DNA of 64,000 nucleotides. Source: an uncultured Bacteroidales bacterium (GTDB lineage: Bacteria > Bacteroidota > Bacteroidia > Bacteroidales > UBA932). The DNA is taken from contig CAMVKH010000004.1 of assembly GCA_947168065.1 (NCBI GenBank), positions 1-64,000 on the forward strand. The letters run 5' to 3'. The notes beneath the pieces are model-generated. The model was given only the letters and a program-made list of their open reading frames with translations, made no database searches and had not been told where the DNA came from. Made by a program: the position numbers and the translations under genes. Below, piece by piece: positions 25,163-49,755 of the stretch (position 1 is the first letter of the stretch; each line of letters opens with the position of its first letter).

Positions 25163-27484
25163 ATGAAAAGAATACTCATTATCATTCCCCTGTGCCTGAC
25201 CGCATTCCCGGCCTTTGCACAGACGCTGCACGGAAGCGTCTTCTATAAGAATCCCAACGGAAAGACCGAACCGCTTCCCTTCGCCCAGGTCTATCACATG
25301 GAGAAGGCCCGTCTGATCGAGACCGATGCCAACGGCCAGTTCTCCCTCAATCTGACCGACCGCGCCACGCTGGTAGCCACTTACGTGGGCTACACCCGCG
25401 ACACCGTCGTGGTGGAGCCCGGCACGGCTGAAGCCAAATTCTATCTGAGCGGTGAGAACGACCTCGATGAATCGAAGGTCACCGCCATGCAGTCCACCCT
25501 GCCCAAGATGAAGAGCATCAAGACCGAAGTCATCACGGCAGCCGGCCTGTGCAAAATGGCCTGCTGCGCCCTGGCCGAGAGTTTCGAAAACTCCGCCAGC
25601 GTCACGGTCGGCTACGCCGATGCCGTGACCGGCGCCCGGCAGATCAAACTCCTCGGCCTCTCCGGCACCTACACCCAGATGCTCGACGAGAACCGGCCCG
25701 TGATGCGCGGCATCGCCGCTCCCTTCGGGATGTCGTTCGTCCCCGGACAGTGGCTGGAGAGCATCCAGATCGCCAAAGGTCCCTCTTCCGTAATCAACGG
25801 CCTGGAAGCCATCACCGGCCAGATCAACATGGAGCACCGCAAGCCCACCGACGAGACGCCGCTCTTCATCCAGCTCTACGGCAGTTCGGACGCCATGTTC
25901 GAGGGCAACATCGCCTCGGCCATCCAGTTCAACGAGAAGTGGAGCGTAATCAACATGGCCCACGTGGGCGGCACCGCCTCGAAGATGGACCACAACCAGG
26001 ACGGCTTCCGCGACGAGCCGGAAGACCTGCAGCTGAACTTCACCAGCCGCTGGCTCTATTACGCCCCGAGCGGTATGCAGATCCGCTTCGGCGGCCGCTT
26101 TATCAACGACGACCGCCTCGGCGGCCAGATGAACGCCACCAAAGACAACACCGTCAACATACGGAACGGGATCTGGGGCTCCAACATCAAGAACCGCGGC
26201 ATCAACGGCTACTTCAAGATCGGTGTGCCCCTCAACGAGGAGAACACCGCCAACATCGCACTGGTGGCGGATTTCAACCATCACGAATTCGATGCCTTCT
26301 TCGGCATGAAAGAGTATGACGCCAGACAGAATTCCGCTTTTGCCAATCTGATCTACCAGAACGAAATCAACGAGACCCACAAGGTTGAATTTGGAGCCAC
26401 CTGGCAGTTCGACGATCTCAACCAGGTGTACGGACAGTATCAGGATCCGCTGTCTTCATACCATAATCCCCGGGAAGACTTCAGCCGCCGCGAGAATGCC
26501 ATTTCGGGATTTGCCGAATACACCCTCACGCCCGGTGACAGCTTCACGTTCGTGGGCGGCCTGAATCTGCAATACAATTCCCTCCACGGCTGGCTCTTCG
26601 CACCCCGCGCCAACGTCCGCTGGGCGCCGGCCGACTGGGTGACGCTGCGTGCCCTGGGCGGCCGCGGCTACCGCACCGCCAACATCTTTACCGACAATCT
26701 CGGCATCTTCTCGACCGGAAAGGATTTCTTTGCACCGGATATGCAGTTGAGCGACCTCGACCTGCTGGAGGACGCCTGGACCTGGGGCGGCAACGTGACC
26801 TTCTACCTGCCCTTCGGCGCGGAGGACACCGACACTTACCTGAGTTTCGACTACTTCCGCAACGATTTCAACCGGCAGGTGATCGTCGACCCGGAGACCT
26901 CCTCTCCCCTCGGCATCGCTTTCTACAATCTCGACGGAAAATCCTACACCAATACCTATCAAGTGGATTTCTCCGTCAACCCGCTGGAGCGCTTCAACAT
27001 AACCGCAACCTTCCGCTACACCGACGCAAAGGTGACGCTGCGCGACAAGGGCCTGGTGGAACGCCCGATGACCAGTCGCTACAAAGGCGTGCTCAACATG
27101 CAGTACGCCACGGCCATGAGCAAATGGACCTTCGACTTCACCGCCCAGATCAACGGCCCGATGCGCCTGCCGAAGTATGCCGCCCAGGTCTGGGAGATGG
27201 AGACCTCCCCGGTCTTTCCGATGCTCTATGCCCAGATCACCCGCAAGTTCAAAGGCATCGACGTCTATGCCGGCGTAGAAAACATCCTGGGCTTCCGTCA
27301 GCACGACGCCATCATCTGCGCCGACCATCCTTTCAGTCCCAACTACAATGTATGGCTTGACGGGGCATCAACCGGTATCTACCGGATGCCTACGGCCAGC
27401 GAGGTTTTCGACGCCAGCAACGTCTGGGGTCCCCTGATGGGCACCAAATTCTACCTCGGCCTCCGTTATACTTTATGGAAATAA
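25163..27484 (+). CDS. TonB-dependent receptor, metal-associated type
   Basis: 773 residues, signal peptide 1-20 (FPAFAQ). N-terminal carboxypeptidase-regulatory-like domain (about 22-110: GSVFYKNPNGK...LTDRATLVATYVGYTRDTVVV), plug about 125-240 (VGYADAVTGARQIKLLGLSGTYTQMLDE, IQIAKGPSSVINGLEAITGQINME), then the beta-barrel to the aromatic-rich end YLGLRYTLWK. A Cys-rich LCKMACCALAESFE just before the plug (family form usually CCNLSESFE) marks a receptor type that co-occurs with HMA proteins. Imports a metal or metallophore; copper is the best guess. ATG 25163 gives a clean signal peptide. Confidence 0.88.
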   Translation: MKRILIIIPLCLTAFPAFAQTLHGSVFYKNPNGKTEPLPFAQVYHMEKARLIETDANGQFSLNLTDRATLVATYVGYTRDTVVVEPGTAEAKFYLSGENDLDESKVTAMQSTLPKMKSIKTEVITAAGLCKMACCALAESFENSASVTVGYADAVTGARQIKLLGLSGTYTQMLDENRPVMRGIAAPFGMSFVPGQWLESIQIAKGPSSVINGLEAITGQINMEHRKPTDETPLFIQLYGSSDAMFEGNIASAIQFNEKWSVINMAHVGGTASKMDHNQDGFRDEPEDLQLNFTSRWLYYAPSGMQIRFGGRFINDDRLGGQMNATKDNTVNIRNGIWGSNIKNRGINGYFKIGVPLNEENTANIALVADFNHHEFDAFFGMKEYDARQNSAFANLIYQNEINETHKVEFGATWQFDDLNQVYGQYQDPLSSYHNPREDFSRRENAISGFAEYTLTPGDSFTFVGGLNLQYNSLHGWLFAPRANVRWAPADWVTLRALGGRGYRTANIFTDNLGIFSTGKDFFAPDMQLSDLDLLEDAWTWGGNVTFYLPFGAEDTDTYLSFDYFRNDFNRQVIVDPETSSPLGIAFYNLDGKSYTNTYQVDFSVNPLERFNITATFRYTDAKVTLRDKGLVERPMTSRYKGVLNMQYATAMSKWTFDFTAQINGPMRLPKYAAQVWEMETSPVFPMLYAQITRKFKGIDVYAGVENILGFRQHDAIICADHPFSPNYNVWLDGASTGIYRMPTASEVFDASNVWGPLMGTKFYLGLRYTLWK

Positions 27485-27849: not shown

Positions 27850-27876
27850 CCAGCCCCCGGCCCCCACTCTCATTCT

Positions 27877-28005
27877 TTTGCCGCGACGACACTCTGAGCA
27901 TTCTCACATTGTCGTCGCGTCGCATTTTCGGCCATTTTCGCCCCAAACCCGGCCGCGACGACACCGTGAACCACCCCACAGCGTCGTCGCGTCGAAACTG
28001 GCTCA
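27877..28005. repeat. CGCGACGAC double-hairpin repeat, copy A
   Basis: Two inverted repeats in tandem: CGCGACGAC (27882-27890) with GTCGTCGCG (27911-27919), and CGCGACGAC (27954-27962) with CGTCGTCGCG (27982-27991). Lies between the HMA gene and the first beta-barrel gene (tail to tail), where it can act as a bidirectional terminator. The upstream CCACAGAATG hairpin found in other copies is missing here. Confidence 0.75.
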
Positions 28006-28674
28006 GCTTAAAAAAGGAAGCCGTATCGTAGCGTTATGGCGGGAGTGAAGACGTTCTGTCCTTGAACGTCGGTTCTGGTAGAATAAGATGGAGTGTCAGG
28101 TGTTCCACTATCTGTTGTGACGCGGTTCACGATGGCGCTTTGCTGCAATAGAAGGCCGAGCGACAAGGCGCTTCTTCTTCCTATTCTCCAGCCCAGTTGG
28201 GGCTCAACAAAGAACCCATTATAGCAAGGTTTCTTCTTACCGCCAGGTATCCAGTTGGCGCTGTAATAAGACAATACACCTATTGAATAGCCGGCATCCA
28301 AATTGGCGAATAGTTTCTCTTTACCATATCCAAAACGCAGGAATAGGGGGACATCCTGTTCGTTGCAGAAAGACCGGCTCTTGTTTCCATTATTGGTAAT
28401 ATACTGAAGGCAGGGCTTGGAGATGCGCATTCCCGCCCCAGCGCCAAAATTGAAACCTCTCCCAAGATCATATTGTGCAACAAACTCCGGGGTAATGGTG
28501 AAGAGGGGGCCCTTCCCGATACCGGCTCCGGCAGCAACTTCCACTGAATAAGAAAAGCGGTTTTGTGCCAAAAGCGCAAAGGAGATCAGGCTAAGAACGA
28601 GAATGGAAGTAATCTTCTTCATCGGTAAAAATAATTGGTAATCAATTATATAAGGCCAACGGGATAATTATGTA
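27951..28674. repeat. 720-bp direct duplication, unit 1 (beta-barrel gene)
   Basis: Matches 35946-36669 at constant offset 7995 with only scattered differences outside the coding region; both encoded 204-residue proteins are identical. Covers the right half of hairpin repeat A, the whole barrel gene and the last ten codons of the following lipoprotein gene. Confidence 0.9.
28008..28622 (-). CDS. Outer-membrane beta-barrel protein, copy 1
   Basis: 204 residues: signal peptide 1-19 (SFALLAQ), then alternating beta strands with aromatic girdles (FSYSVEVAAGAG, YDLGRGFNFGAGAGMRI, VPLFLRFGYG, PALSLGLLLQQSA) and a C-terminal Phe strand ending RYGFLF, the recognition signal for BAM. Predicted eight-stranded OmpA/OmpW-like barrel of the 'outer membrane beta-barrel' type; function unknown. 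It ends 2 nt after hairpin repeat A and starts 20 nt downstream of the next gene's stop, so is the last gene of a minus-strand unit with the two genes to its right. An identical protein is encoded at 36003-36617. Confidence 0.8.
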   Translation of the reverse strand: MKKITSILVLSLISFALLAQNRFSYSVEVAAGAGIGKGPLFTITPEFVAQYDLGRGFNFGAGAGMRISKPCLQYITNNGNKSRSFCNEQDVPLFLRFGYGKEKLFANLDAGYSIGVLSYYSANWIPGGKKKPCYNGFFVEPQLGWRIGRRSALSLGLLLQQSAIVNRVTTDSGTPDTPSYSTRTDVQGQNVFTPAITLRYGFLF

Positions 28675-29499
28675 TTCTGGCGCTGGATTATCCATTTGTA
28701 TTGTACTCAGAGCATCCTTAACCTTTTGCAAGTATTTGGAACACTCATCCGGGATCGGCGTGTCGGAAGATGGGATGCGTGAAACAACTTCCAGAGAATG
28801 AAGCCGTGCATTGTATAACACGATTGCCCTGACAGGGCGTTCCGTTTGAACCAGTATCTTGTCCAGCACACTTTTTCCGTTTGCTACAACATAACCCGTA
28901 TCCGTTGCTAATGAACCGTGTTCCTTTTGTACGGCGACAATACAGGAGTCTATCGCACCATAATCAAATTGGTTTCGAAACAGATATCTGCCAGCTTTGT
29001 TAAATGCCGCCGTACGGAAACCCTCCCAGAAACCTGGTTCATCCAAAAGGTACTTCTCATAATGCTCAAAACGGTAGAATTGACTGCCCTTGACAATGCT
29101 GCCCGTCGGATGACTGAAATCATGCACGAGGATGAAAGCAGAATCTTTATAAAACAGGGACTCTATTTTATTCGGAGCAAATTTTTTCAAGATGTCAGTA
29201 CCCGTGAAGAATTCCAGTTCAGAAAACTCCTCTGGTACATTCTGTTTATAATCCTCCAAAAAGGAATAGAACTCAGCATAATCATCAGGTAGCGAGTAGT
29301 GGGTTTGGCGATAATAATCCAAAAGCCCCGTCAGCAATGTATTAATTTCGCTGTTTCTAACCTTGTCTTCAAAACGGCCCGGTTGGGTGTGACAACAAGA
29401 AGTCGCCAAAAGCATGATGAGAAACAGAAGCTGCAACAGTCTTCCCTTCCACAAGCAACACTTGGTCTTGCCATTTCTATCAGATATTATCTCATCCAT
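28642..29499 (-). CDS. Hypothetical lipoprotein, paralogue of the 30364-31257 protein
   Basis: 285 residues. N-terminal signal preceded by a basic stretch, lipobox region LLATSCC. The body has no domain I know. It shares a layout with the protein at 30364-31257: a helix with LLDYYRQTHYSLPDDYAEFYSFLEDYKQNVP (there NAYYAMPSDYDEFMSFIKEYKKRDP), SIVKGSQFYRFE (there SVIGTPFYWLE), and GRYLFRNQFDYGAIDSCI (there GKYLFDSEFHYRRFEETI). So the island carries a diverged duplicate pair. Its ATG overlaps the stop region of the membrane-protein gene upstream by 13 nt, indicating one operon. Confidence 0.7.
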   Translation of the reverse strand: MDEIISDRNGKTKCCLWKGRLLQLLFLIMLLATSCCHTQPGRFEDKVRNSEINTLLTGLLDYYRQTHYSLPDDYAEFYSFLEDYKQNVPEEFSELEFFTGTDILKKFAPNKIESLFYKDSAFILVHDFSHPTGSIVKGSQFYRFEHYEKYLLDEPGFWEGFRTAAFNKAGRYLFRNQFDYGAIDSCIVAVQKEHGSLATDTGYVVANGKSVLDKILVQTERPVRAIVLYNARLHSLEVVSRIPSSDTPIPDECSKYLQKVKDALSTIQMDNPAPEYIIIPLALYN

Positions 29500-30304: not shown

Positions 30305-30372
30305 TCGTGGCCGCCTTCCCCTTTCTTTTGTCTCGAAACTAAAATCAGATGGTCGCCTTTTTCTCATTGCCA
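30305..30372. repeat. Degenerate hairpin-repeat tail
   Basis: Contains a GTGGCCGCC start and TCTCGAAACTAAAATC followed by ATGGTCGCCTTTTTCTCATTGC, matching the end of repeat copy D and what follows it at 42084-42122. A truncated relic; both loci lie at the 3' end of a minus-strand lipoprotein gene. Confidence 0.45.
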
Positions 30373-32064: not shown

Positions 32065-32229
32065 ATGCCTTCTTTTGAATCTCATATCTTTATACCACAA
32101 ACAGCGTTTATTGAGGCGAATCATTTCATTAATTGGCGTATAATAGAAAATATCGAAGTTGATGGGCTGTGGGAAGGATATGAAAAAGAGGTTACTATTC
32201 CTATCAGACACCCGATAGGTAGTGTTTGA
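32065..32229 (+). CDS. Small duplicated ORF, 54 aa (possible gene fragment)
   Basis: Encodes MPSFESHIFIPQTAFIEANH... ending TIPIRHPIGSV. An identical stretch occurs at 35649-35809 without a start codon. No signal peptide or known domain. The shape (Trp/Ile-rich strands, abrupt start) suggests the 3' end of a larger lost gene carried along in the repeat rather than a real small protein. The preceding 31950-32064 shows no gene. Confidence 0.3.
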   Translation: MPSFESHIFIPQTAFIEANHFINWRIIENIEVDGLWEGYEKEVTIPIRHPIGSV

Positions 32230-32384
32230 GTGCGACCACAGAATGAAGATTCAGAGGCTGGTGTCCATTCTGTGGCCGCATCCTGCCTTCTTTTGCCGCG
32301 ACGACATGCTGAGTGCTCCTACATTGTCGTCGCGTAGCAATTTCGGGCATTTTCACCCCGAACACGGCCGCGACGACATCGTGA
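32069..32384. repeat. 315-bp direct duplication, unit 1
   Basis: Matches 35649-35964 at constant offset 3580 with a single visible difference (T/G at 32335). Contains the 54-codon ORF, the CCACAGAATG hairpin and the left part of the CGCGACGAC element. Confidence 0.9.
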
Positions 32385-32418
32385 GCCAATCCACAGTGTC
32401 GTCGCGTCGAAACTGGAT
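32236..32418. repeat. Composite triple-hairpin repeat, copy B
   Basis: Hairpin 1: CCACAGAATG (32236-32245) with CATTCTGTGG (32266-32275). A constant linker (CCGCATCCTGCCTTCTTTTG) leads to hairpin 2, CGCGACGACA with TGTCGTCGCG (about 32298-32334), and hairpin 3, CGCGACGACA with TGTCGTCGCG (about 32370-32406). Lies between the 54-codon ORF and a convergent small membrane-protein gene. Confidence 0.8.
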
Positions 32419-32448
32419 CAGCGCATGCTGCCCGTCGCTGCAGCGCCA

Positions 32449-32763
32449 TTATTTGTTCTCACTCACTATCCATTCGCGAAAGAATGGATCCTCCATATTA
32501 CGAATATTTTCGTTACGACTTTTTTCGTAATGCGAATGAATAATGGCCATAGAATGATAATTAACCCGGCACTTTGAGTCTATCGTACCCATTACGACCT
32601 GCGTTGGTCCATGATTAATCAAATTATTGATATATAATTGATTGAGCACTGCCCATATAATTACAATCCCTACTAGTATTATTCCAACGTAGTTGCTTGA
32701 AAAATGATGTTTTGTGTCACCACTCTCTTGTTTGCGTTTACTGGTTTTTTGCTTTTTTGCCAT
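32449..32763 (-). CDS. Small single-pass membrane protein
   Basis: 104 residues: a Lys/Ser-rich cytoplasmic N terminus (KKQKTSKRKQESGDTK), one membrane helix (about 24-44, YVGIILVGIVIIWAVLNQLYI) and a 60-residue outside domain with His/Ser/Asn residues (CRVNYHSMAIIHSHYEKSRNEN). Family not recognised. Follows the same direction as its neighbours. Between it and the next gene (32764-32944) there is only a degenerate repeat with the CATCCTATGGCCGC motif. Confidence 0.6.
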   Translation of the reverse strand: MAKKQKTSKRKQESGDTKHHFSSNYVGIILVGIVIIWAVLNQLYINNLINHGPTQVVMGTIDSKCRVNYHSMAIIHSHYEKSRNENIRNMEDPFFREWIVSENK

Positions 32764-32944
32764 AGAAATACTGGTTATGGTCTCATCCTATTCACAATAA
32801 AGATAATTATCAACCTTGCGGTCACAGACTGGGCACCAGCCACGAATCTTCATCCTATGGCCGCTGGTCTCCGTCATAAATGCTCAATACACAAAGAACA
32901 AAACTGCCCTTCCGGTACCACGCTAGCCCCTGTTATTCTTTCAG

Positions 32945-33582
32945 CTAAAAAAGATTCAACGATTGCTTTGGAATAAAAATATGGATACACGATTCTATAT
33001 GATATATACTACGAAGTTCGTTTGTCTTTAGAACCAGCTTGGTCGGTATATATTTGTCCTGATGTTTCAAGTAATCTTCTGTATTCTTGATAACTAGATT
33101 GTCACCTTTGTTATCACTTTTGTTATAAATATACTTTGACTGCTTGAAGTCAATTCCAGCGTTATGAATATTGATCATGGGAATGAACAGTACATAATAC
33201 ATATCCGGCTGATTAACAAGTTGGATAGGCTTTAACAAGTACTCCGACCGATTGATCACCTGTCTCTCTAATATCGCCTTAACCCTTTCACTTATACATG
33301 CAATCATTCCGGGACGATTGTAATAGACATCCATGAAATCCAAAGGCCTTTTATAATCAAGTTCTCCTATCAGCGGGTCAGGGTAGCGCTCCAGGATTAC
33401 GGGTATCTTATCAAAATACTCATGAAATGATTCTCCCCTTCCGCATACAATAGCTTCTTCAACTCATCAAGAAACCCCGGCGTTAAAATCCTAACAGACT
33501 GAGGATGAGTCCTTCCCTTGAGATACTTTTCTTCCCAAGACACTTCGATTATTTGGTACTGGTTTACCTTATTCGAACTCAT
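32945..33582 (-). pseudogene. Imm11-like protein gene, frameshifted in a G-run
   Basis: Two minus-strand frames make one protein of about 211 residues. The first (33582 down to 33397) runs MSSNKVNQYQIIEV...LDELKKLLYAEG; at a GGGG tract near 33437-33440 the frame is lost. Adding one G restores ESFHEYFDKIPVILERYPDPLIGELDYKRPLDFMDVYYNRPGM and joins the second frame, which ends at 32945. The restored C-terminal half (RPGMIACISERVKAILERQ...YYVLFIPMINIHNAGIDFKQS) resembles the Imm11/DUF1629 group, known as immunity proteins of polymorphic toxins. Its ATG overlaps the TGA of the upstream gene (ATGA). Family call tentative; frameshift well supported. Confidence 0.6.
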
Positions 33583-34925
33583 TTCTTTGACCTGATCTTT
33601 GAAAATGGGGTTACTCGATACTTCTTGAATCTGGTCGGATCATTGTCCGAAAACACATATCTTACATATGGCTTTCCGTCATTGATCACAGCGTCAGGCC
33701 TTATCGGCAAAACAGGGAGGACGATGGTATCAACTTGATTGAAAGCCTGCAAGGTGTTGATTGTTTGCTCAGACAAGGATTTGGTGGCGTTGTCCCAATA
33801 AAACAACTTACCCTCATATTCAAAAACAATTGTCGGGAAAGCCGAATAATTAATGACGACATTTGAATCATCCGCCCAAATCGACGGATGTTCCGAACTC
33901 CATTCAGATATGACTATTACGTTTTGAGACGTCAAGGTGTCATAATAGAAAACCGTATCATTGTCCTCGTCTATCCTAAATGTTACCGTGTTCCCTTTCG
34001 GTTCTATCTGGAGGCATGGTTTGTTGTCTTCCCCTATGATTATTATCTCTTTTGAAGGGTCGCCTTCCGAAGCAATCACGGCAAACAAATCATTGTCACG
34101 CAAAAGTCTTTTTTCCTTATGGACGAAATCATTTATGGCCGTGAAGTATGACTCATCTTCGAAGATTTCGGGTATCTTGTGAAGATAGATTCCATTCAAG
34201 TCATCGGACGTATAGATCGCATTATGAGCTTTTGCCTCGATTGCTACGATTTCTGTCGGGGAGATCTGGAGACCTTTAATGCCCAGATTCGGAGCCACGG
34301 CAATTCCCAGGAGCGTATCTGCCGGAAAAACCGGAATCAAATCGAAGTTATAGGAACGAAAGACTTTTAACTTGTTGTTTGACCGAACTTTCGAGTTGTC
34401 CTTGATAGGACTGATTATTTTGAAGGTCGAGTCATTCCTGGATGCGTAGATCAGGTAATACGATTCCTTTTTTTGTATTCTTATGATTCTATACTCGGCC
34501 GTATTACCCACATGGGCGACCCGGTCCGAGCAAGAGAATAGTAGAAGAAATAATAAACCGAGTATCATCATTTTTCCGACCATCCCCTTCCAGTCTGAAA
34601 TAGCGACTCCGTCGTCATTGAGATGAGCCCCCACTGCTTCAGACCAGTATGTCACAAAAACCTCAGGATTGGTTTTTTGTAGTTCATTCTGGATAATAGC
34701 CCTGAGTCTCAACCCTTCTTTATCAAGATCTATTACGGCTCCTTTGCGAAGCTGTCTGCGGTATTCCTTAAAACCATTATATTTGGAAAGCCTATATCTT
34801 TCTAACCAAGCCGCTAACTCTTCCCTTGTTTGCTGCGTAAGAGAAAGCGTCCGGATGTCGATAGGCATCCCGTCAAGATGGAACAACCCTGTCCCTGACA
34901 ATTGTCCGTCCAGCTGGATATACAT
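33579..34925 (-). CDS. Composite protein: small cytosolic-type domain joined to a lipoprotein-like domain
   Basis: 448 residues from ATG 34925. Residues 1-112 (MYIQLDGQLSGTGLFHLDG...WSEAVGAHLNDDGVAISDW) look like a self-contained small protein with no signal peptide. At about residue 118 a second Met cluster starts a perfect lipoprotein signal, MMILGLLFLLLFSC, followed by about 315 residues of beta-rich exported-type sequence (YRIIRIQKKESYYLIYASRND...). The C terminus is basic (RFKKYRVTPFSKIRSKK). No stop separates the parts, so either two genes fused by an in-frame deletion, or translation restarts at the internal ATG. Function unknown; overlaps the Imm11-like pseudogene by 4 nt, as toxin-immunity or operon partners do. 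Confidence 0.55.
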   Translation of the reverse strand: MYIQLDGQLSGTGLFHLDGMPIDIRTLSLTQQTREELAAWLERYRLSKYNGFKEYRRQLRKGAVIDLDKEGLRLRAIIQNELQKTNPEVFVTYWSEAVGAHLNDDGVAISDWKGMVGKMMILGLLFLLLFSCSDRVAHVGNTAEYRIIRIQKKESYYLIYASRNDSTFKIISPIKDNSKVRSNNKLKVFRSYNFDLIPVFPADTLLGIAVAPNLGIKGLQISPTEIVAIEAKAHNAIYTSDDLNGIYLHKIPEIFEDESYFTAINDFVHKEKRLLRDNDLFAVIASEGDPSKEIIIIGEDNKPCLQIEPKGNTVTFRIDEDNDTVFYYDTLTSQNVIVISEWSSEHPSIWADDSNVVINYSAFPTIVFEYEGKLFYWDNATKSLSEQTINTLQAFNQVDTIVLPVLPIRPDAVINDGKPYVRYVFSDNDPTRFKKYRVTPFSKIRSKK

Positions 34926-34959
34926 TTCAAGCACTGATTATTTCCACTTCTCAAAGATA

Positions 34960-35619
34960 TCAAAAAGATGGAGAAGAGGCAAACACTTTCTTGCTGGCCC
35001 TCAGTCTTATCAGCAACAACGGACCAGGTGTTATGCCCTGTTCCCTGAATGATTTCGTCGTTACCCTCAGCGGTTCAATACTTCTGTGAATAATGGTCGT
35101 ATCTTGATTCAGATACTCCCAATTTGGAACGACATGAAAAGAATTATGCCATGTTTCAAATTCGACGATAACATAGGGATAGCGGGGAAGTACCCTTAAG
35201 TAGTCATACTTATCTATCACTTCTTTAATCAAATCATTATCTTCGATAAATAATTCGTCATCTATTGTTGCTGATTTCATCCGGCGGCATAAAGAAGTGT
35301 CTCCGGTCACTTTGAAAGATTCAACGCCTAATACAATTGAATCATTGGAAATGAATATATCCGGAGTTTCATGCGTCTTATTAATCCATATAACCGGACC
35401 ATTGATTCGATCAAGCGGTCCTTCAATTTCCTGCAAATCTTTGGAAAGATAAAAGGCTTTGTACTTTTCCCCAGTAATATCTACCATTCTGGCATACCAT
35501 TCCGTAGACGGAATCATGAAAATACCATCATAGCTATATTGATCGTCAGCGCTATATCTTGAGAAGCATCCGGAAGTCAATACTACGCACACTAGAAATA
35601 ACAAAAACTTCTTTGTCAT
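34960..35619 (-). CDS. Hypothetical lipoprotein, 219 aa
   Basis: Signal peptide with a canonical lipobox VLTSGC (Cys at 18), then a soluble domain of alternating short strands (YDGIFMIPSTEWYARMVDITGEKYKAFYLSKD, PYVIVEFETWHNSFHVVPNWEYLN). Family not recognised. First gene of a minus-strand set with the composite protein and the Imm11-like pseudogene (34-nt gap, then 4-nt overlap), so the three are probably one operon. Upstream (35620-36002) there is no intact gene: it holds the second copy of the 54-codon segment and repeat copy C. Confidence 0.7.
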   Translation of the reverse strand: MTKKFLLFLVCVVLTSGCFSRYSADDQYSYDGIFMIPSTEWYARMVDITGEKYKAFYLSKDLQEIEGPLDRINGPVIWINKTHETPDIFISNDSIVLGVESFKVTGDTSLCRRMKSATIDDELFIEDNDLIKEVIDKYDYLRVLPRYPYVIVEFETWHNSFHVVPNWEYLNQDTTIIHRSIEPLRVTTKSFREQGITPGPLLLIRLRASKKVFASSPSF

Positions 35620-35648
35620 ATTTGTCTTTCTTTTTCAGCCATCAGTTT

Positions 35649-36002
35649 CTTCTTTTGAATCTCATATCTTTATACCACAAACAGCGTTTATTGAGGCGAA
35701 TCATTTCATTAATTGGCGTATAATAGAAAATATCGAAGTTGATGGGCTGTGGGAAGGATATGAAAAAGAGGTTACTATTCCTATCAGACACCCGATAGGT
35801 AGTGTTTGAGTGCGACCACAGAATGAAGATTCAGAGGCTGGTGTCCATTCTGTGGCCGCATCCTGCCTTCTTTTGCCGCGACGACATGCTGAGTGCTCCT
35901 ACATTGTCGTCGCGGAGCAATTTCGGGCATTTTCACCCCGAACACGGCCGCGACGACATCGTGAACCACCCCACAGCGTCGTCGCGTCGAAACTGGCTCA
36001 GC
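35649..36002. repeat. Composite hairpin repeat copy C with duplicated left flank (mosaic)
   Basis: The left 315 bp (35649-35964) copy 32069-32384; the right end from about 35946 copies 27951 onward. CCACAGAATG hairpin at 35816-35855, first CGCGACGAC hairpin near 35878-35914, second near 35949-35986 with the A-type loop (GTGAACCACCCCACAG) instead of the B-type loop. The changeover falls inside the repeat. The 54-codon segment here lacks its start codon. Confidence 0.85.
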
Positions 36003-36669
36003 TTAAAAAAGGAAGCCGTATCGTAGCGTTATGGCGGGAGTGAAGACGTTCTGTCCTTGAACGTCGGTTCTGGTAGAATAAGATGGAGTGTCAGGTGTTC
36101 CACTATCTGTTGTGACGCGGTTCACGATGGCGCTTTGCTGCAATAGAAGGCCGAGCGACAAGGCGCTTCTTCTTCCTATTCTCCAGCCCAGTTGGGGCTC
36201 AACAAAGAACCCATTATAGCAAGGTTTCTTCTTACCGCCAGGTATCCAGTTGGCGCTGTAATAAGACAATACACCTATTGAATAGCCGGCATCCAAATTG
36301 GCGAATAGTTTCTCTTTACCATATCCAAAACGCAGGAATAGGGGGACATCCTGTTCGTTGCAGAAAGACCGGCTCTTGTTTCCATTATTGGTAATATACT
36401 GAAGGCAGGGCTTGGAGATGCGCATTCCCGCCCCAGCGCCAAAATTGAAACCTCTCCCAAGATCATATTGTGCAACAAACTCCGGGGTAATGGTGAAGAG
36501 GGGGCCCTTCCCGATACCGGCTCCGGCAGCAACTTCCACTGAATAAGAAAAGCGGTTTTGTGCCAAAAGCGCAAAGGAGATCAGGCTAAGAACGAGAATG
36601 GAAGTAATCTTCTTCATCGGTAAAAACAATTGGTAATCATTTATATAAGACCAACGGGATAATTATGTA
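35946..36669. repeat. 720-bp direct duplication, unit 2
   Basis: Copy of 27951-28674 (offset 7995). Includes the whole beta-barrel gene, and beyond its start the last ten codons (YIIIPLVLYK on the minus strand, 36640-36669) of the neighbouring lipoprotein gene, here without the rest of that gene. That truncated tail marks the end of the duplicated segment. Confidence 0.9.
36003..36617 (-). CDS. Outer-membrane beta-barrel protein, copy 2
   Basis: Identical in all 204 residues to the protein at 28008-28622: signal peptide, alternating aromatic strands and terminal RYGFLF. Start at ATG 36617, the same MKKITSILV as copy 1; an in-frame upstream Met would add four residues. Unlike copy 1 it is not preceded by its lipoprotein partner, only by that gene's last ten codons, so its promoter must come from new upstream sequence (36670-36726, which shows no clear -7 box). 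Perfect protein identity with a few flanking differences points to a recent duplication or gene conversion. Confidence 0.8.
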   Translation of the reverse strand: MKKITSILVLSLISFALLAQNRFSYSVEVAAGAGIGKGPLFTITPEFVAQYDLGRGFNFGAGAGMRISKPCLQYITNNGNKSRSFCNEQDVPLFLRFGYGKEKLFANLDAGYSIGVLSYYSANWIPGGKKKPCYNGFFVEPQLGWRIGRRSALSLGLLLQQSAIVNRVTTDSGTPDTPSYSTRTDVQGQNVFTPAITLRYGFLF

Positions 36670-36726
36670 GATAGAAACCACAACGGAACAACGATTCATC
36701 ATCTGATCATTTATAGTTTTCTCAGG

Positions 36727-37326
36727 CTAAATAAACCCGTCAAACGGCGTCAATTCATTGGCGAAAGTAAGGTTAATGACATCGCCCGCCTTGGAAATGA
36801 TGACGATATCTATGTCTGTTTCTTCCGGATCAATGGCGGACAGTTGATACGAATTGATCCGTACCTCCTTAATCAGGTCATGCCCGTTTTCGTACTTGCC
36901 TTGATTCATGGGGATTATCAAATTGCTGCCGAGCCCCAGCGATTCGTCGAGTCCCAGAATACATATTCTATCAATCTGCTGACCCGGTTTCGTGTACTCG
37001 ACACCGTTATGAAAGAAACCATCAATCCAAGCCAAAGGTTCCGCTTCTCCCAGATTGTATCCCTGAGGATATTTTTCACGGTAGAAATGACTGTATTGGG
37101 CTGATCCCTCCTTGATGTCGGGGATACCGCCACCCATAAACGCGGATCCAATGGAAATAATCATCGTTCCTTTTTTAGACAATAGCTTTGAATCTACCAT
37201 GGACTGTTTGGCAGGCTTGATGACGAGGGCATTCCGATTGCCTCTATTGATATTGTACGTTTCGCACCCACTCAGGCATACTACCAGAAGGAGCGAAGAA
37301 AGGATAATATGGATATTTTTTCTCAT
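36727..37326 (-). CDS. Hypothetical lipoprotein, 199 aa
   Basis: Lipobox CLSGC (Cys at about 21) after a typical signal. The soluble part has a conserved-looking GTMIISIGSAFMGGGIPDIKEG strand-loop, AWIDGFFHNGVEY, and ends INLTFANELTPFDGFI. Family unknown. Its upstream region (37344-37380, AAAGATGCACAAG... on the plus strand) is similar to that of two other island lipoprotein genes (at 41092 and 48887), suggesting shared control. Confidence 0.7.
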   Translation of the reverse strand: MRKNIHIILSSLLLVVCLSGCETYNINRGNRNALVIKPAKQSMVDSKLLSKKGTMIISIGSAFMGGGIPDIKEGSAQYSHFYREKYPQGYNLGEAEPLAWIDGFFHNGVEYTKPGQQIDRICILGLDESLGLGSNLIIPMNQGKYENGHDLIKEVRINSYQLSAIDPEETDIDIVIISKAGDVINLTFANELTPFDGFI

Positions 37327-37383
37327 AGTGTTTATAAGTGTTTGATATAAAGATGCACAAGTATTACCAAATTTGCGTAAGTG

Positions 37384-38207
37384 TCAGCGGAAAAAGCGGA
37401 GGTATTGTTCCTTGTTCAGGGAGGATGAATTCTGGATGCTTTCCTTCAGACGGGACTTGCGGGCATACGTGGCTGGGATCGACGGGATTTGGAAGGCCGC
37501 CTTCAAGATGCTGGCATCAAAACCCGCAAAAACGAAACTCACGAAATGATAGTCGGACTCCGCTTCATCGGGAAAATCGGCTCGATAATGTACCATTACG
37601 TCATCAAACAGTTCATTCAGACGACGTTCCAGCAGTATTTGCCCTTCCTTGTCTCCCGACAGGCGGGCAATCGCATTCGTCGCTTCATAATACACATTCT
37701 CGCGAACATCAAGGATATCATTGTTGCCAGGATGATAGTACGCCTTGTACAGCTGACCCCACTCCCGGAAAGACGATTGCAGATGCATGGTATACTCCCG
37801 TTGCAGCTGCGCCTGTTGGACATTCATCTCGGCCACTTTGTCGGAAAGAGCCGTAACCGCCTCCTGAAGGGAGGCATTCTCCTGCTCGAGCTCCAGGCTT
37901 TTCTCGCGGTCCTGTTCATGTTTACGCTTAACCTGAAGAATTGCAACAATCGCTGCTGTCAACAGAAGCAATACCACAAAGCCCCAGATCAGCCAGTGAT
38001 TGACCAGCTTGCGCCGGGCTGCTGTTTCTGACTCCCGGTTCACTTCCTCCAAGAAGTCTTTTTGGGCTTTGATGGCAGACTGTCTGAAAGCTTTCTTAAC
38101 GTTTTCATTTTGGATGTCAGATGCCGCCTTTTGAAGAAGAAATGCAGATAAATAATCTCCCGAATAGGCATCGGCCATGCTTTTCCAGTAGTCATAAACA
38201 TATAATT
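37384..38207 (-). pseudogene. C-terminal half of TPR membrane sensor gene, cut by IS insertion
   Basis: Reads YVYDYWKSMADAYSGDYLSAFLLQK at the break, then one membrane helix (HWLIWGFVVLLLLTAAIVAIL), a Gln/Glu/Leu coiled coil (LELEQENASLQEAVTALSDKVAEMN) and a C-terminal helical domain (FREWGQLYKAYYHPGNNDILDVRENVYYEATNAIARLSGD) typical of Bacteroidales TPR-TM-coiled-coil regulators. An internal ATG at 38178 could still give a 264-residue membrane fragment. The N-terminal half is at 39690-40568; removing the IS and one ATAATT copy rejoins the frame exactly (SSQLYVYDYWKS), giving about 565 residues. Confidence 0.9.
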
Positions 38208-39689
38208 CAATAGTTCGTTAACTTTTTCCCAGGCCTAAGCGGCTCTGGATGTAAATAAAACCAGTTCTTTGAAAAGTTTGTCAATAACTTGTGGGTTCGG
38301 TCGCAGACCGGACACGCAAATAAATCGCTCAAGCATGTAGGCGTTATGGATCATCGACTTGCAGGAAGATACAGAAAACGTAACTCCGAGGTTCTTGCAG
38401 GCGGCCTTAGCCAGGTTGATACTGGCGAAGGAAGCGTTGAAGTGGAACTCCAGTCTCCGAAGGTCTCTGGCCTGACAGTCGTTGAGCCCGGCGTAAGATT
38501 TGGCATCGCGAAAGCAGAACTCCAGCTGGAAACGCGTTCTGTAGCAGTTGATTACATCACGGGTGGTCATGGACTCGTCCGTGCTGAAGTAGATTTGCCA
38601 CTTGTCCATCGAGTCCTCATCCGGATACCAGATGGCAACCTTAATGAAGCGTTTGAGGGACTTCGAATAGGCCTTGAGGCCAAACAGACGCCCCTTGTCC
38701 ACGTGGAGTTCAACGCAGCGGGTAGGGTCAAGGTTGGCAAAGTCAATCTTGCCGTCGTACCATCTGGGATGGCCCCGCTTGCCGCTGGGCTTTTCCGTTG
38801 TGGGATACCACAGGGCGGCATCGTTCCGCATGCGGCTGACCACGTGAAAGCCCTCGTCCAAAAGCGGCAGAACAAAGGTCTGCTTGGCAAAGAAGGCATC
38901 CGCGACAAGAAGTTTGGATATGGCCTGAAGCCTGTCCTTCATGGATATCAGGAGTTCCCGATACCAGTCGACCAGGTTGTAGTCCATCTCCTCAAGGGTC
39001 TTGGCGTTGGGTGTCTGAAGGGCACCTAGAGCCATGCAATCGTGATTCTCAACGTCAATCAGGCCAATGCCCAGCAGTTCGAGGCCTCTCTTGGGACCTC
39101 CGGCAGCTCCAGACCAGAACTTTCCGAACCACGGAGTCTTGTTTCCCACCTTGGGGATAAAGCTCGGGTCCACCGCTATGGCTCTGAACTTTCCCGTACA
39201 CACCTTGTTCGCAAGGAAGAGGTTGAACGCGAACCAGTCAAAGTCATCCCGGGTGAAGGTGTTCCGGTAGGTCTGTTCTGCGAACTCGCCATACCGGCCC
39301 ATCTGCAGGAAATTGATCTTATCAGGTATCGCCATGAAGAGTTTTAGGGTATCGATGATTACTTTCTCGAAAGGTTTGCCTAAATTTGCTACTGATTTGA
39401 GGGCTTCAATGACCTCGGATTGGTATTGCGTAAGTGCGTTTGCGTTATTCATAACTTAAAGCGTAGGATACTCTAAGTTACTAATAATCAGCGACTTATG
39501 CAATACTTTTCTGCTTTGTTTTCGGCGCTTTACGCATCCTCTTTTTCGGAGTATTTGCACCCATTCTCAGCAGCCTTCTGAGCGGTCGTTATTGACAGTG
39601 TTTTCAATGAACTTTTGTTGTTAAACTGTATGTTTTCGTTTAGTCCGCCGCCTTGCGGCTCCTAAACATAAAATTTACCGAAGTATTGA
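38208..39689. mobile_element. Complete IS4-like insertion sequence, 1482 bp
   Basis: Left end CAATAGTTCGTTAACTTTTT (38208-38227) and right end, read inward on the minus strand, CAATACTTCGGTAAATTTTA (39670-39689): 20-bp terminal inverted repeats with 4 mismatches. Flanked by a 6-bp direct repeat ATAATT (38202-38207 and 39690-39695). One transposase on the minus strand and about 235 bp of non-coding right end. The element interrupts a TPR gene whose frame is restored by its precise removal. Confidence 0.92.
38235..39452 (-). CDS. IS4-family DDE transposase
   Basis: 405 residues. Catalytic core: first Asp in AIAVDPSF, second in LLVADAFFAK, and the IS4 YREK signature YRTRFQLEFCFRDAK (Y-x2-R-x3-E-x6-K) with the catalytic Glu. 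All are intact, so the element may be active. The N-terminal 90 residues form a helical DNA-binding part. The gene fills most of the element and ends 27 bp from its left inverted repeat. Confidence 0.9.
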   Translation of the reverse strand: MNNANALTQYQSEVIEALKSVANLGKPFEKVIIDTLKLFMAIPDKINFLQMGRYGEFAEQTYRNTFTRDDFDWFAFNLFLANKVCTGKFRAIAVDPSFIPKVGNKTPWFGKFWSGAAGGPKRGLELLGIGLIDVENHDCMALGALQTPNAKTLEEMDYNLVDWYRELLISMKDRLQAISKLLVADAFFAKQTFVLPLLDEGFHVVSRMRNDAALWYPTTEKPSGKRGHPRWYDGKIDFANLDPTRCVELHVDKGRLFGLKAYSKSLKRFIKVAIWYPDEDSMDKWQIYFSTDESMTTRDVINCYRTRFQLEFCFRDAKSYAGLNDCQARDLRRLEFHFNASFASINLAKAACKNLGVTFSVSSCKSMIHNAYMLERFICVSGLRPNPQVIDKLFKELVLFTSRAA

Positions 39690-40568
39690 TAATTGGGAAC
39701 TGTTTTTATTATTTTCAAGTTGTCGGAAAAGTTGTTCAGCTCGTTTTGTGTTCCCAATTCGCATCAATGCGTAGGCATAAGCACCCCAGAGATTTCTGTT
39801 TTTTAAGGAACCCGTAGAAGAGAGGGCCTCTTCGAAAAGACGAATAGCCATTTCATAATCTTTATCTTGCGTCACACAACTCAGTGCGTAACTACTCAGA
39901 AGATCGGACCGAAGATTGGGATGAACTTGACTGCCATCTATCAATAAACAGAATAAGGAATCTGCTTCTGCATTCATTCCCAGATCATAATATTCATGTG
40001 CGATACCGAGAAGAGCCGCATTCGCATTCAGCGTGTCTTTTGATTCTACAAAAAGGGAATAGGCTCGCTCTGAGTATTTGAGCGCCTCTTCATGAAGATG
40101 CGCTTGACTGTAAATAGAGGCTAAAGACTGGAAAATCAGTCCCTTGAAATAAAAGTCATCAGATCTTTCTGCATATCGTTCCGCCTTCATGAAAGAAATA
40201 CTTGCCTCCGGGCGATCCCCAGCGTTCTGTTGAATCCTTCCCAGATAATACCAAGCCTTCGCTCGGCGGATGCCAGATGGATGCCGGTCATAGTATTCCA
40301 CCGCCGGCATCACCACATTCACATCGGTCGTGTCGATCCAGTTCTTGTCGAGGGCCATGGCGTGGAGCAGCGCGTAGTGGGCGCGGAGGCTGCGGGTGGT
40401 GAGCGTCGTCGTGTCGATGGCCCGGATGGTGGCCAGGGCGCTGTCGGGACGCTGTTGGATGTATGTTTCTACGTCATTGAGTATCGCCGCAGCGTTGCGA
40501 CTTGCGCAGGAGGCGAGCAAAAGAGCAGCCACCGAAATCGATATGAGAGATAAATAATGACGGAGCAT
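39690..40568 (-). pseudogene. N-terminal half of TPR membrane sensor gene, cut by IS insertion
   Basis: Begins with a lipoprotein-like signal (LLLASC, Cys about 20), then TPR repeats from about residue 25 to 290 (AKAWYYLGRIQQNAGDRPEASISFMKAERYA; FKGLIFQSLASIYSQAHLHEEALKYSERAY). The reading frame runs into the IS and stops four codons later (SILR). Intact relatives are 550-600-residue proteins with TPRs outside, one membrane helix, and a coiled coil inside, thought to be envelope sensors or regulators. The truncated 297-residue lipoprotein may still be made. Confidence 0.9.
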
Positions 40569-40598
40569 AACATTTTAAACGCAGGAGCATTTCAAGTT

Positions 40599-41069
40599 TT
40601 AATCCGCCTTCTGCGTAATAGAAAACCAGCCGAAACCTGAAGGATGAGAGAGAGTATCTGATATTGCCGCAGCTATTACCGGGCGTGTCATTCCGGTCTC
40701 ATTTTTCGTAAACAGGAAAGTATAGCGAACCTCTCGATCGCTGATTCTTTTCCTACCCTCGTAACTAACGAATGGGGCATCGAAGTTTATAGTTTCGAAG
40801 AAGAAATCATTCAGAATACGATTGCTTGGGGTTCCGTTAACCAGTGTATCAAGATAATAAGCCGTCACTTCAACAATCCCGCCTTCTTTACCGATGGAAA
40901 TGCTACGCTTTGGAGAAACAAAAATGGTTTCTAGCGTAGCTCCTTGACGTACGAAGTATGTAGTGTCAACCGTCTTAAACACCAATTCTCGGTCTTCTTC
41001 TCGGTTTTCAATCTCTGAACAATCGCACAGTAACAAGGCAAACAGAAGGAATACAATTATTTTTTTCAT
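40599..41069 (-). CDS. Small lipoprotein of a BACON-like paralogue pair
   Basis: 156 residues; lipobox LLLCDC (Cys 17). An Ig-like domain with VSPKRSISIGKEGGIVEVTAYYLDT, then FLFTKNETGMTRPVIAAAISDT and terminal GFGWFSITQKAD. The protein at 48887-49333 has the same architecture (IVFHIGAEGGALRIVAYYPET, then FRIENNTTGKPIVSGAYVVDS, GHFVIMQSAE), so they are paralogues. The xxxG-x-EGG-x-V start and terminal strand resemble BACON domains (carbohydrate/mucin-associated Ig folds), an impression rather than a firm call. 22 nt separate it from the next lipoprotein gene upstream (41092), so likely co-transcribed. Confidence 0.7.
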   Translation of the reverse strand: MKKIIVFLLFALLLCDCSEIENREEDRELVFKTVDTTYFVRQGATLETIFVSPKRSISIGKEGGIVEVTAYYLDTLVNGTPSNRILNDFFFETINFDAPFVSYEGRKRISDREVRYTFLFTKNETGMTRPVIAAAISDTLSHPSGFGWFSITQKAD

Positions 41070-41091
41070 ACCCTTTAAATTGCTTTCTTTA

Positions 41092-41634
41092 TTAATTTCT
41101 TACCTCCATCGAACGAGCCTTGAAAACGAGGCGCGCACCATTGTCAGCTTCGAAGCGGATAGTCCAGTTGCCGGTGAGTTTATCGCCGTTGCAGAGATGA
41201 GAATCATAACCGAAGGGGTACATGTCCCTTCTCAGTCTTGTATCAAAATAGAACTTCCCGGACTGGCCCTGGGAGCCCACATAATCTACCCCGCGATAGG
41301 TTTTTGTACACACAACCCTACCCGGGAAACCTTTGGCAGAAAAGACCACCTGATTCTTGCTGACCTTGCACGGCATCTTGTCAAAAGTAAACCGGACACG
41401 GACACTTTCAAGACCGTCGAATTGTTCACCGTCTACTGCCGTCCAAAAATTCAGGGCGGCCGTAACCTCGGAAGCCGAGGACGAGTTAAGCGTAAGAACC
41501 CCTTCCGTGGAGAACACGAAATCCTCATAAGTATTCTCCGCTACATCCCAACGCGGAATATCTATTTCCTGACACGCCACGGCTCCCATAAGAAGCGCCA
41601 GCGACAGTAAAACGAGGAATAATATCCTTTTCAT
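41092..41634 (-). CDS. Hypothetical lipoprotein, 180 aa
   Basis: Signal with lipobox MGAVAC (Cys about 21); a beta-rich body (VRVRFTFDKMPCKVSKNQVVFSAKGFPGRVV, GNWTIRFEADNGARLVFKARSMEV). The layout of strands and the final basic ending are reminiscent of the lipoprotein at 46781-47338 (RLTFSARSTVHIFF, PVRVDLKLDNGDRIKLLFNHV), so the two may be distant relatives. Family unknown. Its promoter region is in the 260-bp repeat shared with the gene at 48887. Forms a unit with the BACON-like lipoprotein downstream. Confidence 0.7.
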   Translation of the reverse strand: MKRILFLVLLSLALLMGAVACQEIDIPRWDVAENTYEDFVFSTEGVLTLNSSSASEVTAALNFWTAVDGEQFDGLESVRVRFTFDKMPCKVSKNQVVFSAKGFPGRVVCTKTYRGVDYVGSQGQSGKFYFDTRLRRDMYPFGYDSHLCNGDKLTGNWTIRFEADNGARLVFKARSMEVRN

Positions 41635-41659
41635 AATGACAAATTATTTAATGCGTGTG

Positions 41660-41930
41660 TTTGATACAAAGATGCGCAAAGATTGCCAGATGTTGCGTTT
41701 CCGGGCTGTAGATTTATCTTACAAAGCGGGTTTTAGGTAATTATTGTAGTATACTGATAATTATGCGGTTACGGAGCAGCGGACCGGCGTGTAAGAAAAT
41801 AAATCTTACACGGCAAAATCGAGGACTCGACAATTAACCCGTAAGCGGCTGACTATCATACAATTAATAAATAATCGCCTTTCGGCCTTCTAATACGGGC
41901 TTGTAAGGTATTTCCACAGAATGAAAAATG
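41660..41930. repeat. 260-bp upstream repeat, copy 1
   Basis: Matches 49382-49651. The left part (AAAGATGCGCAAAGATTGCC..., promoter side of the 41092 gene) is similar; from GTAAGAAAAT at about 41791 to 41927 the two are almost identical. Inside are a short inverted repeat TGTAAGA-N7-TCTTACA and a right end that runs into the CCACAGAATG hairpin. No coding capacity seen in 41635-42114. Confidence 0.8.
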
Positions 41931-42092
41931 TGGCTGGATTGCCATTCTGTGGCCGCATCCTGCCTTCTTTTGCCGCGACGACATGCTGAGTGCTCCTACA
42001 TTGTCGTCGCGTAGCAATTTCGGGCATTTTCACCCCGAACACGGCCGCGACGACATCGTGAGCCAATCCACAGTGTCGTCGCGTCGAAACTA
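41914..42092. repeat. Composite triple-hairpin repeat, copy D
   Basis: CCACAGAATG (41914-41923) with CATTCTGTGG (41943-41952), the same linker as copy B, then the two CGCGACGAC / GTCGTCGCG hairpins, closely matching copy B (loops ATGCTGAGTGCTCCTACATT and ATCGTGAGCCAATCCACAG). Sits just past the 3' end of the lipoprotein gene at 42115. Confidence 0.8.
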
Positions 42093-43137: not shown

Positions 43138-44268
43138 TTATCGATTCATTTCCAAATATCGAGACAGAAAAACATTATAAACTGAATACGACGTACCGTC
43201 ATCGGTAGTCGTTACCAGCACCAGTTCTTTGTCCATCAGTGCCTTTATGTTTCTCAATGCGGTCGGGCCGGAAGAGATCTTGTACTTGGACAGGAAAGCG
43301 GAGGAGGTAATTTGCGAGACGCTTCCTTCCTTGGCAAGAGCTTCCAGCATTTTCCATTGGGAGCGGGTAACCAGCCGGCGGATTTCCTGAAAACGGTCTC
43401 GTTCAGAATCAAGGATGGACTGGATGGCGGTCACTATATCATTCCGGACGATGACATTTCCGGAAAGGGAGAACACTTCATTACACAACCGTTGCGTATA
43501 GTAAGTATGGTCTTTCGTCCATTCGATGATAAAGCTGATGGAATCATCGTCGATGGTCTTTCCCGCTGATTCGAATTTCTCCTTGATGAAAGCCGAATAA
43601 ACTGGAACAGGCAACTTGGAAAGATAGGAGAAAGAAGTACTCTCGTAGAAGGGCTTCTTGGCATTCGTAAACATATCGGTCATCGTATGCTTCTTGCTTC
43701 CGCAATAGATGAAACGGACATTATGCAGATGCTGGATATGCTTCCTGAGAACCGCTTCCATATTGACATCGTTGTATTCCCTGATTTGCTGGAACTCGTC
43801 TATGGCCAACACGACTTTCTGCGGATAACGCTCAAGATAGTCCATTACTTCTTTGAGCGTACTCTGCTTTTGACTGTCGTCAGCGAAAGTAAACGATACT
43901 TGGGGAGAACCGGTCAGCGGGTCGATGCCAAGCAGGGGACGGACACTCTTCAATGTCTTGAAAAAAGCCGTGATCTTCTGTTGTTTTTCGAGCTTGCTGA
44001 CAACGGCATCTGAGATGACCTTGATGAACTCCTCCAAAGAAAGGGTGTCGCTGATGTCGCAATAGATGGTTTCATAGGGCAGTTTTCTCGCCATCATCTC
44101 GTCAAATACCCGAAATATGAGACCGGTCTTTCCCAACCTTCGGGGAGAGATGAGCGTGGTGTTCCGCCCGTTAGTAATATTGCGGATGATTTCCTCCGTT
44201 TCTTTCTCTCTGTCGCAGAAGTATGCCTTTGATTGATAAGGCTCCAGGATAAAGGGGTTTTCAAGCAT
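43138..44268 (-). CDS. AAA (archaeal-type/STAND-like) ATPase with winged-helix C terminus
   Basis: 376 residues from ATG 44268; a GTG two codons upstream is also possible. N-terminal NPFILEPYQSKAYFCDREKE, Walker A in ISPRRLGKTGLI (about 41-50), Walker B in VVLAIDEFQQI, a sensor-like FIYCGSKK, and a C-terminal winged helix (QWKMLEALAKEGSVSQITS...SKYKISSGPTALRNIKALMDKELV). This is the family of ATPases widespread in Bacteroidota, usually genomically mobile and of unknown role (suggested NTP-driven regulators or defence). Two tandem 14-bp units upstream (44295-44322) may be its operator. First gene of the three-gene unit. Confidence 0.82.
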   Translation of the reverse strand: MLENPFILEPYQSKAYFCDREKETEEIIRNITNGRNTTLISPRRLGKTGLIFRVFDEMMARKLPYETIYCDISDTLSLEEFIKVISDAVVSKLEKQQKITAFFKTLKSVRPLLGIDPLTGSPQVSFTFADDSQKQSTLKEVMDYLERYPQKVVLAIDEFQQIREYNDVNMEAVLRKHIQHLHNVRFIYCGSKKHTMTDMFTNAKKPFYESTSFSYLSKLPVPVYSAFIKEKFESAGKTIDDDSISFIIEWTKDHTYYTQRLCNEVFSLSGNVIVRNDIVTAIQSILDSERDRFQEIRRLVTRSQWKMLEALAKEGSVSQITSSAFLSKYKISSGPTALRNIKALMDKELVLVTTTDDGTSYSVYNVFLSRYLEMNR

Positions 44269-44294
44269 AGCCACGTCTTTTCCGCAAAGATAAT

Positions 44295-49381: not shown

Positions 49382-49651
49382 TCTGTTGTAAAGATGCACA
49401 AAGATTGACAGATGTTGCGTTTCCGAGCTGCAAATTCATCTTACAAAGCGGGTTTTTGGTGATTTTATAACTCACTGATAATCATGTAATTACAGAGTGG
49501 CAGGACAGCATGTAAGAAAATTAATCTTACACGGCAAAATCGAGGACTCGACAATTAACCCGTAAGCGGCTGACTATCATACAATTAATAAATAATCGCC
49601 TTTCGGCCTTCTAATACGGGCTTGTAAGGTATTTCCACAGAATGAAAATCC
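49382..49651. repeat. 260-bp upstream repeat, copy 2
   Basis: Matches 41660-41930; near-identical from AATCTTACACGGCAAAATCG to GTATTTCCACAGAATGAAAA. Holds the promoter side of the 48887 gene on the minus strand and ends in the CCACAGAATG hairpin. No gene is seen in 49334-49783. Confidence 0.8.
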
Positions 49652-49755
49652 AGCCTCAATTTCCATTCTGTGGCCGGAAATCGCTTGCATTTGCCCGATT
49701 CGGGGCCACAGAATGGATTCTGGCCCCGAATCTTCATTCTATGGCCGTGCCGCCG
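49635..49755. repeat. Hairpin cluster at the island's right edge
   Basis: CCACAGAATG (49635-49644) with CATTCTGTGG (49664-49673), then TTCGGGGCCA (49699-49708) with TGGCCCCGAA (49721-49730), and an overlapping GGCCACAGAATG / CATTCTATGGCC pair. The CGCGACGAC part seen in the other copies is absent. Marks the boundary between island and core genes. Confidence 0.7.

Follow-up and report, generated by a model that had tools for sequence, protein, structure and literature searches.

At positions 35649 to 36669 of the window (the whole stretch of 64,000 nucleotides that was analysed, from an uncultured Bacteroidales genome here called G000), two sequences that also occur separately in the same stretch are joined within a palindromic repeat. 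This locus raises the question of how the joint arose, and of whether such repeats move the genes that lie between them.

Structure of the mosaic and its repeat

The window contains four copies, A to D, of a double-hairpin element, and the joint lies in copy C (Table 1). Base-by-base comparison bore out the two sources named in the first-pass annotation: the left part (35649-35964) is a copy of 32069-32384 at an offset of 3580, with 315 of 316 bases matching and the sole mismatch at 35915, and the right part (35946-36669) is a copy of 27951-28674 at an offset of 7995, with 720 of 724 bases matching and mismatches at 35959, 36627, 36640 and 36650. Chance is excluded for both matches because of their lengths (316 and 724 bases). 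Outside the mosaic the identity falls to background, except for a weak similarity to the left flank of B that extends to about 35630. The flanks kept by C, that of B on the left and that of A on the right, measure only ~220 bp and ~675 bp, respectively, and unrelated genes lie beyond them.

The changeover had been placed in the CGCGACGAC arm common to A and B. It was found just past this arm, in loop bases 35960-35964 (CGTGA, the left half of loop 2 of C): C still carries the T of B at 35959, and 35965 is the first position at which it has the base of A instead. A changeover in the arm itself is possible only if the T at 35959 is an independent mutation. The linker of C, described earlier as B-type, is so except at 35915, where C has G, the family consensus, and T stands in the compared copies of B and D (two from G000 and two from its relative G036, Bacteroidales UBA3290 of the same genus). 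Either the left parent was therefore not exactly the present-day B, or C has mutated.

The genes beside A and C, first annotated as identical, encode the same 204-residue protein, which matched neither Pfam (up to E 1) nor NCBIfam and has no solved relative. The last ten codons and stop of the neighbour gene (28642-28674, 33 bases) are likewise present a second time, at 36637-36669, where two bases differ. Downstream from 27965, the three differences between A and C are confined to the last 43 of 710 bases (p about 2e-4 for an even spread), and there are none over 27965-28631.

The element is ~125 bp long, with a pair of 38 bp palindromes spaced at 72 bp and outer ends that are inverted relative to each other, as seen in the four window copies and in others of the genome. 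By inspection, each hairpin has a stem of 9-11 bp, a loop of ~20 bases and a conserved foot (TTTTGCC / GGCAAAA). Terminal inverted repeats of the kind expected of a MITE are present (TTTTGCCGCGACGAC / GTCGTCGCGGCAAAA), and an alignment of 20 copies contains palindromic doublets in inverted orientation between genes, as in RAYT-associated REP/REPIN sequences. By inspection, no unpaired GTAG-type head was seen at the hairpin foot, nor the unpaired CGTC head, 8-9 bp stem and 4-5 base loop of CGTC-type REPs. The elements of A and B are identical at 107 of 125 positions and have no exact shared run above 19 bases; at the switch itself the shared runs measure 14 and 5 bases. The end of A in this genome is GCGTCGAAAC, like that of B, and the end of A in G036 is GCGGCAAAAC, like the family consensus. 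Among the 20 copies, loop types are variously combined (type 1 with 0, 8 and 14; type 0 with 1, 2 and 11), in a grouping that has an arbitrary cut-off and no null model and includes some orthologous pairs. Model matches occur on both strands; of 10 elements, 7 are free of overlap with any crude ORF, and 7 have the 3' end of a crude ORF within 35 bp. An intrinsic terminator was considered and rejected, the outer ends continuing with A on both strands (by inspection only), and no Rfam family reached its gathering score within the window.

Two other repeated sequences were noted in the window. At 30322-30340, TTTCTTTTGTCTCGAAACT resembles both element ends without the middle and adjoins sequence 82% like the right flank of D (G036). 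A second hairpin repeat, CCACAGAATG...CATTCTGTGG, lies at 32236-32275, 35816-35855, 41914-41952, 49635-49673 and 49706-49744; its arms gave 16 matches with at most one mismatch in the window, compared with 4.06 expected.

Table 1. Positions of the mosaic, the element copies and the associated genes in the window
Feature	Position	Strand	Remarks
Left part of mosaic	35649..35964	+	Copy of 32069-32384, 1 mismatch
Changeover interval	35960..35964	+	Last B-specific base 35959, first A-specific base 35965
Right part of mosaic	35965..36669	+	Copy of 27970-28674, 3 mismatches, all in last 43 bases
Copy A	27875..27999	+	Hairpins 27882-27919 and 27954-27991
Copy B	32290..32414	+	Hairpins 32297-32334 and 32369-32406
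Copy C, hybrid B-left/A-right	35870..35994	+	Hairpins 35877-35914 and 35949-35986
Copy D, B-type	41967..42091	+	Hairpins 41974-42011 and 42046-42083; 124/125 identical to B
Gene next to A	28008..28622	-	204 aa; putative beta-barrel in the first-pass annotation
Duplicate gene next to C	36003..36617	-	Same 204-aa protein; listed ORF 36003-36629 starts at an earlier TTG
Neighbour gene	28642..29499	-	Last ten codons recur at 36637-36669
B-D segment absent at the orthologous place in G036	32417..41914	+	One B-left/D-right element there

Distribution of the element and change in its stems

A covariance model built from 20 copies, 10 each from G000 and G036, listed 14 places in G000 (28 matches with both strands counted) and matched 16 of the 40 genomes of the genus, its own included, at E up to 0.001. 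In a search of 295 genomes drawn from the order, run with stricter filters than the genus search and with at most 11 candidates scored per genome, an 18-copy model matched only the window's own genome (E up to 1e-6). Among the genomes compared, the repeat family is found in only one genus. An exact pattern search of the named-genome collection gave five stretches, in the Bacteroidales MAGs UBA3290 and Tb.RUG.407. Viral contigs had no exact-pattern match to the element and plasmids and phages no blastn match, and a phage or plasmid origin was rejected on these searches.

Copies were inspected from 11 of the 16 matching genomes. The stems differ in some species, with e.g. CGACAGGA instead of CGACGACA; both hairpins are usually changed, but only one is in G001 and in one copy from G024. 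Between species the stem changes are compensating: in 18 copies from 11 genomes, 12 of 22 pairs were changed on both sides, and the 55 cells compare with an average of 19.4 in shuffles, a control that is generous since the sequences are related. Within the G000 and G036 copies there was no covariation beyond shuffles (86.0% paired, shuffled mean 86.0), and an RNA-level constraint within these copies was rejected, the compensation being between species only. The largest number of model hits in the 40 genus genomes was that of G011 (53 counting both strands), in which both copies inspected have CGACAGGA-type stems.

Rearrangements at the element in a related genome

Contig C29 of G036 aligns with the window in long blocks at 96-99.5% identity, with A and its gene present once; the other end of the neighbour gene (from 29096) lies on this contig, and a second copy of 28634-29414 is found on contig C5 (97.4% over 781 bases). 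The clearest difference concerns B and D. Where G000 has B, ~9.5 kb and D, G036 has one element, at 29051, which is a clear hybrid with B to its left (3.3 kb block, 99.5%) and D to its right (2.4 kb block, 99.1%). Since the B and D elements are identical at 124 of 125 positions, homologous recombination fits this hybrid, as a deletion or as insertion of a circle, and the direction may be either way. The end of contig C23 holds two pieces 90-94% identical to 40015-40481 and 41089-41596, which may be paralogues; the rest of the missing segment was absent from G036 among the matches listed.

A further element of G036, at 25725, is flanked on the left by sequence like that beside D (98% over 60 bases, 83% over 290) and on the right by 24 bases that match the flank of B with one mismatch, beyond which the sequence joins the middle of gene 28642-29499 at ATGCTGCCCGTCG, common to both sequences in G000. 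Past 100 bases the left flank departs from that of D, and the element is therefore no clean reciprocal product; from its sequence it may be called D-like/B-like.

The statement of the first-pass annotation that the mosaic shows the repeats to shuffle the genes of the island goes beyond what C alone can show, and its support comes from the added genome comparison. Structural differences lay within 105 bp of an element in 8 of 12 cases across five compared stretches, for which the crude chance is 6.5e-8 against all positions and 0.0015 against intergenic positions, in stretches chosen for holding elements, with a crude gene map and with no countable difference in the C12 stretch. With three C3 differences left out, 5 of 9 were near an element (p 0.034 against intergenic positions). 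Within the window, two of the five structural differences from G036 involve an element and three do not. These values are read as indicating that recombination at elements is common, among other causes of variation.

Several further features of the loci compared were recorded. The segment absent from G036 contains a lone IS701/IS4-like DDE transposase (38235-39452), above the Pfam cut-offs and below those of NCBIfam, at which no terminal repeats like the element were seen. Elements also bound a second locus, which has an ABC transporter gene (L070:12456-16925 and L097:6559-13539); here the two genomes have a 3.4 kb segment in opposite orientations, matching at 74.6%. In G036, several elements (L099, L100, L103, L104 and L105) lie next to a different dispersed repeat (TTTTTGACTCGATAG and kin; by inspection). 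A defence island was considered and rejected; among 10 proteins, only two weak PDC-S01 matches were obtained, both for 43138-44274.

Origin of the hybrid copy and relation to known repeats

Recombination between repeats A and B, as first proposed, agrees with the B-left/A-right structure of C, with the B-left/D-right element of G036 and with the varied loop combinations among the 20 copies; a simple crossover is insufficient. As in a duplication joint, the hybrid repeat C is flanked by distal-copy sequence on its left and proximal-copy sequence on its right, yet the A-B segment (~4.3 kb) is not whole on both sides. Exact runs of 19 bases or fewer are short for ordinary homologous recombination. 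With flanks this short and no longer A/B run, unequal crossing-over in its simple form cannot by itself account for C. Either trimming or the insertion of a fragment is needed as well to explain ~220 and ~675 bp in place of whole copies, and the shortness of the shared runs makes palindrome-helped short-homology joining a live alternative.

The simplest account is recombination between copies, either homologous or through joining helped by the palindromes, and C is probably a trimmed joint of a duplication or circle. The island holds direct copies of the 125 bp REP/REPIN-like double palindrome, and recombination between these would duplicate, delete or excise the intervening genes and leave hybrid elements. 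We infer that C would be the B-left/A-right joint from a tandemly duplicated, or circularised, A-B segment, and that later deletion, or insertion of a fragment only, would have left the ~220 bp flank of B and the ~675 bp flank of A with the duplicated gene. For B and D ordinary homologous recombination would suffice; for A and B, joining by short homology helped by the palindromes would be as likely as homologous recombination. Subsequent gene conversion between C and A could explain both the zero differences over 27965-28631 and the B-like TCG end of A.

An assembly chimera or collapse at the C junction is improbable. The genome is a 77% complete assembly in 17 contigs, the identical stretch exceeds 660 bp, and the C junction was not found when, as first suggested, relatives were searched for it (the other 39 genomes of the genus, with no more than 13 candidates scored in each). 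Nevertheless, C has private bases (35915, 36627, 36640) and at 36650 carries A, as does the separate neighbour-gene copy on C5 of G036, whereas copy A has G, which speaks against a chimera; at 36640 the C5 copy agrees with copy A and not with C. A clear hybrid of the same kind is furthermore present in G036, another assembly. Template switching or short-homology joining could instead have brought a copied fragment into C with no duplication or circle, consistent with the 14 and 5 exact bases common to A and B around the switch, the short flanks at both edges of C, the G036 element flank that meets mid-gene at a 13-base stretch also in the flank of B, and the patchy end of A between genomes. 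The B-left/A-right order, expected from a duplication or circle, would in that case have arisen by coincidence, and this origin is considered quite unlikely.

Exchange driven by a site-specific recombinase or transposase, in which a protein would recognise the hairpins (compare integron attC sites or REP/RAYT) and move units of element plus gene, is also unlikely. It would fit the compensating stem changes between species, an element length near 125 bp throughout, the nearby ORF 3' ends (from crude ORFs) and the short homology at the A/B joint. On the other hand, the one resolved crossover lies in shared sequence, and a joined-flank search gave no exact empty site for three elements. Of 40 end-sequence hits in G000 and G036, 37 were in listed double elements (the others being G000:C5:64747, G036:C12:94397 and G036:C35:64696), with nine hits for the reversed-pattern control. 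A link to RAYTs was not supported, since no element lay alongside any of 26 Y1_Tnp loci in 10 genomes; five weak matches only (E 0.27 to 2.5) were obtained with one model of the element, R1, in incomplete genomes, with flanks of ~1.5 kb and with 3 of the 26 loci below the Pfam cut-off. A more far-reaching scheme, a genus-restricted and still active REPIN-like shuffling module lacking a RAYT, in which a stem-recognising protein would promote the excision and rejoining of gene and element together as circles and so rebuild fast-changing gene islands in the manner of integrons, would be very improbable.

The favoured account, recombination between element copies, has known counterparts. Joints of REP-mediated duplications were reportedly described by Shyamala, Schneider and Ames in 1990. 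REP clusters are hot spots of rearrangement (PMC11708052). As in the present case, a hybrid palindromic repeat stands at the duplication joint, and duplication or deletion takes place between dispersed copies. The present joints differ in phylum and repeat family, in their short duplicated flanks, and in that the hybrids are fixed differences between genomes. With REPIN/BIME doublets of REPs (PMC3116915), the element has in common an inverted palindrome doublet as its unit, a position between genes and mosaic copies; it differs in that its halves are palindromes of ~38 bp with loops of ~20 bases, at a fixed spacing of 72 bp. It also differs in having tens of copies at most among the matches listed and no adjacent RAYT found. 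CGTC-tagged REPs are described as occurring in Bacteroidetes among others, mostly as dimers without a dedicated transposase, with an 8-9 bp stem, a 4-5 base loop and an unpaired CGTC head (PMC3733652), whereas the element has a long loop and no CGTC head was seen. The doublet form and the species-dependent stems are shared with REPs; by analogy, the element may work like a REPIN or BIME, and it is not classed as one.

Repeat-driven joints are known in other bacteria, and the novelty here is modest; in the open literature, on the terms tried, the element was not described. The locus is a case, resolved to the base, in which palindromic repeats of uncultured Bacteroidales serve as joints of rearrangement, and a relative has a second hybrid. 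The present description also adds a family of double hairpins with compensating stem changes between species and no transposase found beside the element. If an enzyme drives the exchange, this would be a new and testable way of moving genes; if not, it would be an ordinary consequence of repeated DNA.
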